A stretch of DNA of 64,000 nucleotides from the NCBI RefSeq assembly GCF_000372745.1, contig NZ_KB889561.1:124811-188810 (forward strand), given 5' to 3'. Below, in pieces: positions 27,601 to 31,007 of the stretch. The notes below the pieces were generated by a model. That model did no database searches. It was given only the letters and a program-made list of their open reading frames with translations, and was not told the origin of the DNA. Source of the stretch: Embleya scabrispora DSM 41855. Lineage in GTDB: Bacteria; Actinomycetota; Actinomycetes; Streptomycetales; Streptomycetaceae. Both the position numbers and the translations under genes were made by a program. Positions within the stretch are counted from its first letter, which is position 1, and every line of letters begins with the position of its first letter.

Positions 27601-27629
27601 TTGCACGGGCATTGCGGTCACACGATACT
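27601..27629 (+). promoter_or_regulatory. Promoter of the P450-peptide unit
   Basis: TTGCAC (27601-27606) and GATACT (27624-27629) are spaced by exactly 17 bp and resemble vegetative -35 and -10 boxes. Transcription would start near 27636, giving a leader of about 70 nt before the P450 ATG. Confidence 0.55.
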
Positions 27630-27705
27630 GACCTGAGGTCGCTGTCCGTGTTCCGTGTGGGGCACGTGCTCCCGCACCCGACCGGTGTCAGGGGGAGACC
27701 GCTCG

Positions 27706-28869
27706 ATGGCCAGGGGAGATCTGCGTCGGTTCCATCGGGATCCGTTGGGTTTTCTCGAGGATCTGTCGCGCCGTCGATCCACGGACGTCTTCCGCCTCCC
27801 CTGGGGCGGTTGGTGCGCGGGCGAGACGGAACTGGCGCTCGCGGTGTTGCGCGATCCGGGGTTCAACGCGGGTCTGTCCACCTTCTACGGTGACCTGTTG
27901 CCCTCACGATCGGCTCAGATCGCCGTCGGTCACGCGGTGCGGAACATCATCCGGGCACGATTACCCGAGTACCGCGAGAACCTCGCCGCAGCGGTGCCCC
28001 GACTGCCCGCGGCCGGGCGCTGGCCCGAAACCGGCACCGCACTGGTGTACGAGTGCCTGGCCGATCTGCTGTTGCACCCCGCCGCGGCACCGGAACTGCG
28101 GTCCCTGCTCGCCCGATCCGTGGGCGGCGGCCTGCTGATCCGCTCGCCCCTGATGCGGGAGCGGGCACGCGCGGAGATCCTGCGGTCCAGGCTCTTCACC
28201 GCGCTGATCCGGCACATCGGCCGGCGCCGGGGACAAGGCGTCGACCCCGGCGGCCCGCGCGACCTGCTCGACGCCGTCCTCGATGCCTGCCCCCGGGAGA
28301 CGACCGACGAGGTCGTGGCCGAACTGTACGTGCTGTTGTTCCGCTCGATCGTGGGGAACGTCGGCTACGCCGTGGCCTGGACCGTACTGCTGGCCGGTCT
28401 GCACCACCCGCCGGGAGCACCCTGGCCGTGGCCCACGGACTGGATCGTGCGGGAGAGCGCACGGCATCGCCCGTTCGTCTGGATGGTCGGCCGCCCCGTC
28501 CCGCACCCGATCGAATGCGGCGGTGTGGCGTTGCGTCCCGGCACGATCCTGTCGGTCAGTCCCTACCTCCTGCACCACGACGAACGGCACTGGAGCAGGC
28601 CCGACGCGTTCGACCCCGAACGCTGGGCCCACCCGGACAAACGCGGTCCCTATCTACCCTTCAGCGCGGGCCCGTTCATCTGCGCCGGCGCGGCCGTCGC
28701 CCAGACCATGACCACCGACACCGTCGCCGCCCTGGCCGCGGACGCCCGGCTGACCGTCCTCGGCGGGCACACCCGTCCGGTCGTGACCAACGCGGCCGCG
28801 CCGTGTGCGTTCACCCTGAGCCGCACCACCGAACCGCTCACCCGATCGCACGCACCCGAAAGGAGGTGA
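27706..28869 (+). CDS. Cytochrome P450, candidate peptide-crosslinking enzyme
   Basis: Heme-thiolate monooxygenase of 387 residues. Heme-binding loop FSAGPFICAGAAVA holds the Cys ligand, RESARH contains the ExxR motif, and FDPERW is the PERF-like motif. The usual I-helix (A/G)GxxT acid-alcohol pair is missing; the equivalent stretch reads SIVGNVGYAVAWT, as in several P450s that crosslink aromatic side chains rather than hydroxylate. ATG 27706 with GGGGGAG eight bases upstream is chosen over 27655. Codon 86 (27961-27963) is TTA, so translation likely depends on bldA tRNA. A 23-residue peptide gene follows five bases after the stop. Its substrate is inferred to be that peptide. Confidence 0.85.
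   Translation: MARGDLRRFHRDPLGFLEDLSRRRSTDVFRLPWGGWCAGETELALAVLRDPGFNAGLSTFYGDLLPSRSAQIAVGHAVRNIIRARLPEYRENLAAAVPRLPAAGRWPETGTALVYECLADLLLHPAAAPELRSLLARSVGGGLLIRSPLMRERARAEILRSRLFTALIRHIGRRRGQGVDPGGPRDLLDAVLDACPRETTDEVVAELYVLLFRSIVGNVGYAVAWTVLLAGLHHPPGAPWPWPTDWIVRESARHRPFVWMVGRPVPHPIECGGVALRPGTILSVSPYLLHHDERHWSRPDAFDPERWAHPDKRGPYLPFSAGPFICAGAAVAQTMTTDTVAALAADARLTVLGGHTRPVVTNAAAPCAFTLSRTTEPLTRSHAPERR
28861..28866 (+). promoter_or_regulatory. Near-perfect Shine-Dalgarno for the small peptide
   Basis: AGGAGG within AAAGGAGGTGA ends eight bases before the ATG at 28875. It overlaps the last codons of the P450 gene, whose TGA is 28867-28869. Such strong complementarity to 16S rRNA is unusual in this window and argues for high expression of the peptide. 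Confidence 0.85.
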
Positions 28870-28874
28870 AAACC

Positions 28875-28946
28875 ATGATGGCAATCATCCGGCGGGTCCT
28901 CACCAACACCCCGCCGCTGATCTGGAACCCGAAGGAACACTGGTGA
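28875..28946 (+). CDS. 23-residue peptide, candidate RiPP precursor for the P450
   Basis: Begins MMAIIRRVLTNTPP and ends LIWNPKEHW. The C-terminus is rich in aromatic residues (Trp17, His22, Trp23) spaced so that side-chain crosslinks are possible, while the N-terminal 14 residues with two Arg look like a short leader. Very short precursors with aromatic C-termini beside a single P450 are known from biarylitides and atropopeptides (tryptorubin type), but there the precursor usually precedes the P450; here it follows. The strong Shine-Dalgarno, the five-base gap after the P450 stop and a terminator 17 bp downstream support a real gene. No match to a known core sequence is recalled. Confidence 0.72.
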   Translation: MMAIIRRVLTNTPPLIWNPKEHW

Positions 28947-28962
28947 TCCGAGCCCGAACCGG

Positions 28963-29002
28963 ACGGCCCGCACGGCCGAACGAAACACGCCGTGCGGGCC
29001 GT
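28963..29002 (+). terminator. Terminator hairpin of the P450-peptide unit
   Basis: Perfect 14-bp stem, arms ACGGCCCGCACGGC (28963-28976) and 28989-29002, loop of 12 nt. It closes the two-gene unit and separates it from the carboxypeptidase gene. Confidence 0.82.
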
Positions 29003-29354: not shown

Positions 29355-31007
29355 GTGAAACGCAAACGCCTGTCCGCCCTGACTGCCGCCTTCACCGTCG
29401 CTCTCGCGATGGTCGCGGTCAACCCCGGCCCAGCCGTCGGGGAGAAGGCGCCGTCGTCCGCCGATGCCACGACGTCCGCCGAGTACAGCGTCGTCGGCGT
29501 GCGAACCGCCCAACAGCGCAGCGCCATCGCGGCGACGGGCGCCGCCGTCGACGGTGTGGAGGACGGCCGCCTGTTGATCACCGCGACCCCGGAGGAGGTC
29601 CGGCGGATCAAGGCGCTCGGCTTCACCGTCAACGCCGAGGCTCCGCCCACCGCCCCCGAGAACCGGATCAACCGGGATTTCCCGCCCTCGGACTCCGGCT
29701 ACCACAACTACGCGGAGATGGGCGCCGAGATCGACAAGGCCGTCGCCAACCACCCGACGCTGATCAGCAAACAGGTGATCGGGCGCTCGCACGAGGGCCG
29801 TGACCTGTACGTGCTGAAGATCTCGGACAACGTGACGCTCGACGAGAACGAACCGGAAGTGTTGTTCACGCACCACCAACACGCCCGGGAGCACCTGACC
29901 GTCGAGATGGCTCTCTATCTCGTCAAGTTGCTCGGTGACGGCTATGCCACCGACCCTCGGATCAAGGCGCTGGTCGACAGTCGCGAGATCTGGATCATGC
30001 CCGACGTCAACCCGGACGGAGGCGAGTTCGACATCGCCACCGGTTCGTATCGCAGTTGGCGCAAGAACCGGCAGCCCAACTCCGGTTCGAGCAACGTCGG
30101 TACCGACCTCAACCGCAACTGGTCCTACAAGTGGGGCTGTTGCGGAGGCTCCTCGGGCAGCACCGGCAGCGAGACGTACCGCGGCCCGCAGGCCGAATCC
30201 GCGCCCGAGGTCAGGGCCGTGACCGACTGGGTGCGCGGCCGAATCGTCGGCGGAAAGCAGCAGCTGACCGCCGCGATCGACTTCCACACCTACAGCGAAC
30301 TGGTGCTGTGGCCGTTCGGTTGGACGTACAACGACGTCGTGCCCGGGATGACCGCCGACGAGTACAACACGTTCGCCACGCTCGGCCGGGCCATGGCGGC
30401 GACCAATGGTTACACCCCCGAGCAGTCGTCCGATCTCTACATCACCGACGGCTCGATCGACGACTGGCTGTGGGGCGATCAGCGCGTCTACGCGTACACG
30501 TTCGAGATGTACCCGGAGTCGGGCAACGGTGGCTTCTATCCGCCCGACGAGGTCATCGATCGCGAAACGTCCCGGAACAAGGCCGCCGTCCTGCATCTGC
30601 TGGACTACGCGGACTGTCCCCCGCGTGCCATCGGCAAGACCTGCGGCGGGGATCCGGGCGGCAAGACGTTCGAGAACACCACCGACGTGGCCATCCCCGA
30701 CAACGGCGCCGCCGTCTTCAGCGACATCGCCGTCACCGGTGTACCGGGCAACGCGCCCGCCGGCCTCAAGGTCGGCGTCGACATCAAGCACACCTGGCGC
30801 GGCGATGTGACCATCGACCTCGTCGCACCGGACAACTCCGTCTACCGACTCAAGGACGCCGCGAGCAACGACTCCGCGGACAACGTCGTCACCACCTACA
30901 CCGTCGACGTATCCGGTGAGGTCGCCAACGGCACCTGGCGGTTGAAGGTACAGGACGTCGCCGCCGCGGACACCGGCAAGATCGACTCCTGGAAGGTCAC
31001 CTTCTGA
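29355..31007 (+). CDS. Secreted M14 zinc carboxypeptidase with C-terminal P/Homo B domain
   Basis: Extracellular removal of C-terminal residues from peptides. Signal peptide: KRKR then [25 protein letters not shown] propeptide-like domain (residues 45-105) precedes the M14 domain. Zinc ligands are His176 and Glu179 (HAREH) and His311 (DFHTYSE); substrate residues lie in [12 protein letters not shown]; catalytic Glu384 is in YTFEMYPES. The last 115 residues ([20 protein letters not shown]...) form a proprotein-convertase P domain, common in actinomycete secreted proteases. The GTG at 29355 with GAGGAGG upstream starts the signal peptide; the frame is open earlier without coding sense. Confidence 0.92.

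Follow-up and report, generated by a model that had tools for sequence, protein, structure and literature searches.

A P450 gene followed by a 23-codon gene in Embleya scabrispora: a probable two-gene operon for a tryptophan-crosslinked peptide

Introduction

What is a cytochrome P450 gene of Embleya scabrispora DSM 41855 doing in front of a gene of only 23 codons, the product of which ends in WNPKEHW? A preliminary description of the window (the whole stretch of 64,000 nucleotides that was analysed) had proposed that the pair produces a P450-modified RiPP, in which the enzyme would link Trp17, His22 and/or Trp23 of the peptide. The reading that we consider likely retains the first part of this proposal and narrows the second: the two genes would form an operon for a P450-crosslinked RiPP having Trp17 joined to Trp23.

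Results

Layout of the proposed two-gene operon

The P450 gene and, five bases past its stop, the 23-codon gene are present as previously described, together with the following features.

27601..27629, + strand: promoter-like pair TTGCAC (27601-27606), 17 bp, GATACT (27624-27629), from reading the sequence
27690..27697, + strand: Shine-Dalgarno sequence of the P450 gene, AGGGGGAG; GGGGGAGAC is invariant in four Embleya
27706..28869, + strand: cytochrome P450 gene, 387 aa, ATG at 27706, TGA at 28867-28869
28861..28869, + strand: Shine-Dalgarno sequence of the peptide gene, AGGAGGTGA, with the P450 stop TGA inside
28875..28946, + strand: precursor peptide gene, 23 codons, MMAIIRRVLTNTPPLIWNPKEHW, ATG at 28875, TGA at 28944-28946
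28875..28922, + strand: leader part, residues 1-16 (putative boundary), from the alignment of 20 relatives
28923..28925, + strand: codon of Trp17, invariant, predicted crosslink residue
28941..28943, + strand: codon of Trp23, the second Trp, predicted crosslink partner
28963..29002, + strand: terminator-like hairpin, arms 28963-28976 and 28989-29002, from the repeat and its conservation

The start codon of the P450 gene was set by conservation in combination with its Shine-Dalgarno sequence. The ATG of the peptide gene lies exactly five bases past the P450 stop, which itself falls within the Shine-Dalgarno sequence of the peptide gene, a layout that recurs in most homologous loci; this overlap suggests that translation of the two genes may be coupled. 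The promoter-like pair noticed earlier is found upstream, though as a weak match to the consensus which the promoter scan did not flag; its -10 region, CGATACTGAC, is identical in G001, G002, SID3343 and NBC_00888. The hairpin proposed as a terminator downstream contains 14 perfect base pairs, inside a 17-bp repeat (94%); it has no T tract and the terminator scan gave no flag there. It is kept in five Embleya genomes, with exchange of an A-T for a G-C pair in two, and the hairpin of G002 has a mismatch at the pair so exchanged in other genomes.

Conservation of the gene pair

Used as a query, the P450 retrieved homologues from Embleya-group genomes, Streptomyces, Actinophytocola and family f19; a class-wide draw yielded 4 of 395, and 181 genomes of family f6 yielded none. 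A short gene closely follows each of the homologous P450s examined, in about 40 distinct genomes, some loci deriving from one genome fetched twice; homologues lacking a conserved small ORF, which the preliminary description had named as contrary evidence, were not encountered. A mechanical test for small ORFs of 15-40 aa within 80 bases, with a strong Shine-Dalgarno sequence and a Trp in the last ten residues, was passed by 41 of 45 homologous loci and by none of 23 loci with unrelated control P450s. The four failing loci have the downstream small ORF when inspected by eye, and comprise SID3343 with its frameshifted P450 (counted twice), L005, where the P450 frame continues into the peptide, and L064, which has a weaker Shine-Dalgarno sequence. 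In the P450 gene of Streptomyces sp. SID3343 (L001:6001-7160) the reading frame is interrupted immediately ahead of the heme-binding Cys, next to an intact precursor; either the draft assembly contains an error here or the enzyme has decayed.

The peptide is under purifying selection, with dN/dS about 0.1 between close relatives: in the comparison of five Embleya, values are about 0.02-0.15 among close strains, rising to about 0.28-0.58 when SID3343 is one of the pair, and the P450 of the same Embleya has about 0.30-0.39. Across 17 flanking regions (the window plus 16 others), the P450 alone is present in more than four, and hence the conserved unit consists of two genes.

Directly downstream of the operon, at 29355-31007 on the + strand, there is a gene for an M14-type zinc carboxypeptidase, apparently with a signal peptide; it has no counterpart common to the other flanking regions compared. 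A role for this carboxypeptidase, or for the PucR-like regulator encoded upstream, was considered and rejected, neither recurring in more than four of the 17 regions.

The P450 enzyme

The window P450 matches PF00067 in the profile search (E 9.5e-21) and has the heme loop FSAGPFICAG, with Cys326. The centre of its I-helix, SIVGNVGYAVAW, is devoid of the acid-alcohol pair that is usual in P450s, a deviation that would fit radical coupling over oxygen insertion. The AlphaFold2 model (pLDDT 88) matches the P450 fold at Z about 30, and the structure search returned many equal matches to this ordinary fold, thus providing no information on the substrate. Among solved P450s, only 9ulw_A aligns over nearly the full length, and it is also the closest PDB sequence (3.3e-23). 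The I-helix of 9ulw_A, recorded just as cytochrome P450, resembles that of hyalucidin-type enzymes, and the protein is possibly another RiPP enzyme. Against NF050147, the model for the aminopyruvatide enzyme ApyO, the window P450 scores 58.4 bits, the equivalog cut-off being 525. We predict that it is the macrocyclase of the downstream peptide.

Conservation of the peptide and spacing of its tryptophans

In the alignment of 20 relatives, Arg7, Pro13 and Trp17 are invariant, Arg6 is present in at least 90% and Trp17 always lies four residues past Pro13. The second Trp is present in 19 of the 20, at a distance that is specific to each clade. Hence, the peptide does not vary freely without Trp/His conservation, the other outcome that would speak against the preliminary description. 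The other Embleya have the C-termini WNPKDPW, WNPKDPWR and WNPRAPW, with Pro at position 22 in all four, so that His22 is peculiar to the window strain and is rejected as a crosslink partner; of the sites proposed earlier, Trp17 and Trp23 are those that fit the conservation.

Related Streptomyces and allies have C-termini such as WDPPVWL, WEPDVWL, WEPNVWL, WSSSGSDWE and WFRAS, one sister clade has WYWY, WFWV and WFWG, and a further clade (L106-L110 plus L079) has AWFIW, AWHIW, AWWIW and AWRIW. The L106-L110 loci, from family f19, have P450s 43-45% identical and precursors with a bitryptide-like W-x-x-W core, a different leader and no KSLK motif, and a methyltransferase-like gene seems to come next. 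In L077 (G938) the precursor, MISTLRRIFRSSPSNSWFRAS, lies 33 bases past the P450 stop and keeps the leader and first Trp; its core, SWFRAS, has no second Trp, and consequently a Trp-Trp bond is not universal in the family.

When ordered by P450 clade, the gap between the Trps is x1, x2, x4, x5 or x6, or there is no second Trp. These six states require five changes on the P450 tree (28 rows), which is the minimum possible. The I-helix centre is SIVGN(V/I)GY in the x4, x5 and x6 enzymes, with GN in all; in x1 enzymes it has AP or VP and then V, I or L, and in x2 enzymes it is SVAPVGH or SVAPVAH. This match between I-helix and Trp gap is a correlation along the phylogeny, which falls short of proving control.

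Discussion

Proposed pathway

A single mRNA would carry both genes, the P450 first, and a ribosome finishing the P450 would halt on the Shine-Dalgarno sequence of the peptide, where it could reinitiate. The N-terminal region of the precursor, from Arg6-Arg7 to Pro13, would bind the P450 as a leader and, once bound, keep Trp17 near the heme. The enzyme would then oxidise Trp17 and, at the cost of two hydrogens, bond it to Trp23, closing a macrocycle over Trp-Asn-Pro-Lys-Glu-His-Trp, i.e. seven residues, five of which lie between the Trps. The leader would subsequently be cut off by a housekeeping protease encoded elsewhere, as has been proposed for atropopeptides (PMC11450843). Leader binding and coupling of the two Trps are predicted because of the kinship with hyalucidin-family P450s and of the conservation described above; the bond itself, the atoms that it would join, the cleavage and the release are what we infer. 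That the product is a P450-modified RiPP, as first proposed, gains support from the recurrence of the pair in about 40 genomes with no other conserved neighbour, and from its sister clade being the hyalucidin A family.

In evolutionary terms, the spacing of the Trps raises a further question: has one P450 lineage, acting through a shared leader, produced graded Trp-Trp macrocycles, one size for each enzyme clade? On this we are evenly divided. The series would then comprise rings of three (WYW), four (WxxW), six (WDPPVW), seven (WNPKEHW, in the window) and eight residues (WSSSGSDW), and the ring size of each clade is perhaps set by the I-helix segment, AP versus GN.

Alternative explanations

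The alternative that survives best, which we nevertheless consider unlikely, is a P450-modified RiPP in which the enzyme acts upon Trp17 alone or links it elsewhere than to Trp23, for instance to a backbone nitrogen, Asn18, Lys20 or His22, leaving Trp23 to aid only binding or release. The invariance of the first Trp would by itself also fit chemistry confined to Trp17, the sole invariant residue of the core, and L077 dispenses with the second Trp altogether; in tryptorubin, moreover, an aromatic side chain is bonded to the backbone (PMC12352619). Such a product would hardly account for the second Trp of 19 of the 20 relatives, at a distance fixed for each P450 clade, while among the substitute partners His22 is replaced by Pro in the other four Embleya and Lys20 is not retained in the sister clades.

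Much less probable is that the small ORF encodes a regulatory or structural peptide, such as a leader peptide or a chaperone of the P450, rather than a precursor. This would agree with its very short length and apparent coupling to P450 translation, but not with a C-terminal part that differs from one P450 clade to the next behind a conserved leader, nor with a sister clade that constitutes an NCBI-curated family of RiPP precursors.

Even weaker is the case for an atropopeptide or bitryptide whose core is unusual, despite the two Trps close to the C-terminus, the single P450 and the bitryptide-like AWFIW-type cores of the distant clade L106-L110. The published definition of atropopeptides asks for a class-defining P450, for KSLK in the leader and for Trp at core position 2 (PMC11450843), and two of these parts, the motif and the P450, contradict such membership. 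None of KSLK, RSLK, ESLK, KSRK, KPLK and PSLK occurs in MMAIIRRVLTNTPPLIWNPKEHW, and Trp17 takes core position 2 (xWxxxx) only if the core begins at Ile16, the leader boundary being putative. The window P450 is just 24.2-24.6% identical to three P450s that stand beside KSLK precursors, from which it separates into another clade with 100/100 support. The same genome also has a separate sca-type atropopeptide precursor, EKSLKSATWFIWYS, located upstream of its own P450 (G000:C1:322535-322567, L082), whereas the precursor of the window is downstream; the P450 of that locus is 24.6% identical to that of the window, which lies outside its clade with the same support. Atropopeptide identity was rejected on these grounds. 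The sca-type locus lies further along the contig of the window, at a distance of about 134 kb, and its precursor of 28 residues ends in KSLKSATWFIWYS, matching the reported scabrirubin core of Embleya scabrispora.

That the ORF arose by chance behind an ordinary P450, conceivable given the abundance of ORFs in high-GC DNA, has a negligible probability and is refuted by dN/dS about 0.1 and by the recurrence in about 40 genomes versus 0 of 23 controls.

Significance

There is demand for P450 catalysts able to staple unprotected peptides; the published ones compared here mostly form rings of three or four residues. In a family with five different Trp-Trp spacings among its natural substrates, and with enzymes that change along with their peptides, control over macrocycle size would become testable. 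If the graded series were true, it would amount to a natural set of ring-size-tuned macrocyclases, with rings larger than those of the P450 RiPPs compared here. The published CoreFinder criteria, which look for KSLK or for a core with two aromatics side by side, would miss WNPKEHW; since, in addition, no NCBIfam model recognises the tested precursors of the window clade, the products of these loci are probably unexplored.

Comparison with known systems

The core of the window peptide is, as the preliminary description had stated, unlike the described patterns of biarylitides and atropopeptides. Biarylitides of the BytO type have a precursor of five residues in which a P450 crosslinks aromatic residues (PMC13417212), resembling what is predicted here for another tiny precursor; the window peptide has 23 residues with a separate leader instead of five, and biarylitide identity was therefore rejected. 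Atropopeptides or bitryptides, which include tryptorubin, cihunamide and scabrirubin (PMC11450843, PMC12352619), share the two-gene locus, the single P450 and the Trp-rich C-terminus, and scabrirubin has a Trp-Trp link; however, their Trps are two residues apart rather than five. The seven-residue closure predicted for the window exceeds the W-x-x-W and Y-x-H closures of the P450 RiPPs compared here, a point that counts against the reading.

The pair of the window shares with the cyptide superfamily a P450 and a short aromatic precursor, and would belong to it in the broad sense, having a conserved P450 and a short precursor with conserved aromatic residues. Surveys have divided cyptides into 19 groups (Nam et al. 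2023) and 11 categories (Liu et al. 2024), according to the review through which we refer to them (PMC12299652). In our best reading, limited to the account of these groups in that review, the window clade is a new one among P450-crosslinked RiPPs, but it may already figure among the groups of Nam et al. (2023) or Liu et al. (2024).

The nearest characterised relative of the window system is the hyalucidin A family, for which the title of the original paper reports a benzofuranoindoline formed through catalysis by tandem P450s (Yin et al., Angew 2026, e22698, as cited in PMC13417212). Its model for RiPP precursors, NF053510, matches peptides of the L012 and L065 types above the cut-off (2.8e-16 and 6.4e-11), whereas the NCBIfam search gave no such match for the window peptide. 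The cores differ too, FWYLYHHI- or HWYVYHHI-like in hyalucidin-type peptides and W-x5-W in the window. The L012-L015 loci have a second P450-like match downstream of the precursor, a position occupied in the window by the M14-type carboxypeptidase gene, with no second P450 beside the precursor. Identity with the family was rejected, given that the NF053510 match and the tandem P450s are both missing. Nonetheless, hyalucidin-type P450s are 33-36% identical to the window enzyme and form its sister clade in the tree. The two systems also have in common a basic leader, a Trp-containing aromatic C-terminus and a short precursor gene that comes right after the first P450, so that the gene order, which had appeared to be new, is one that the window shares with the hyalucidin family.
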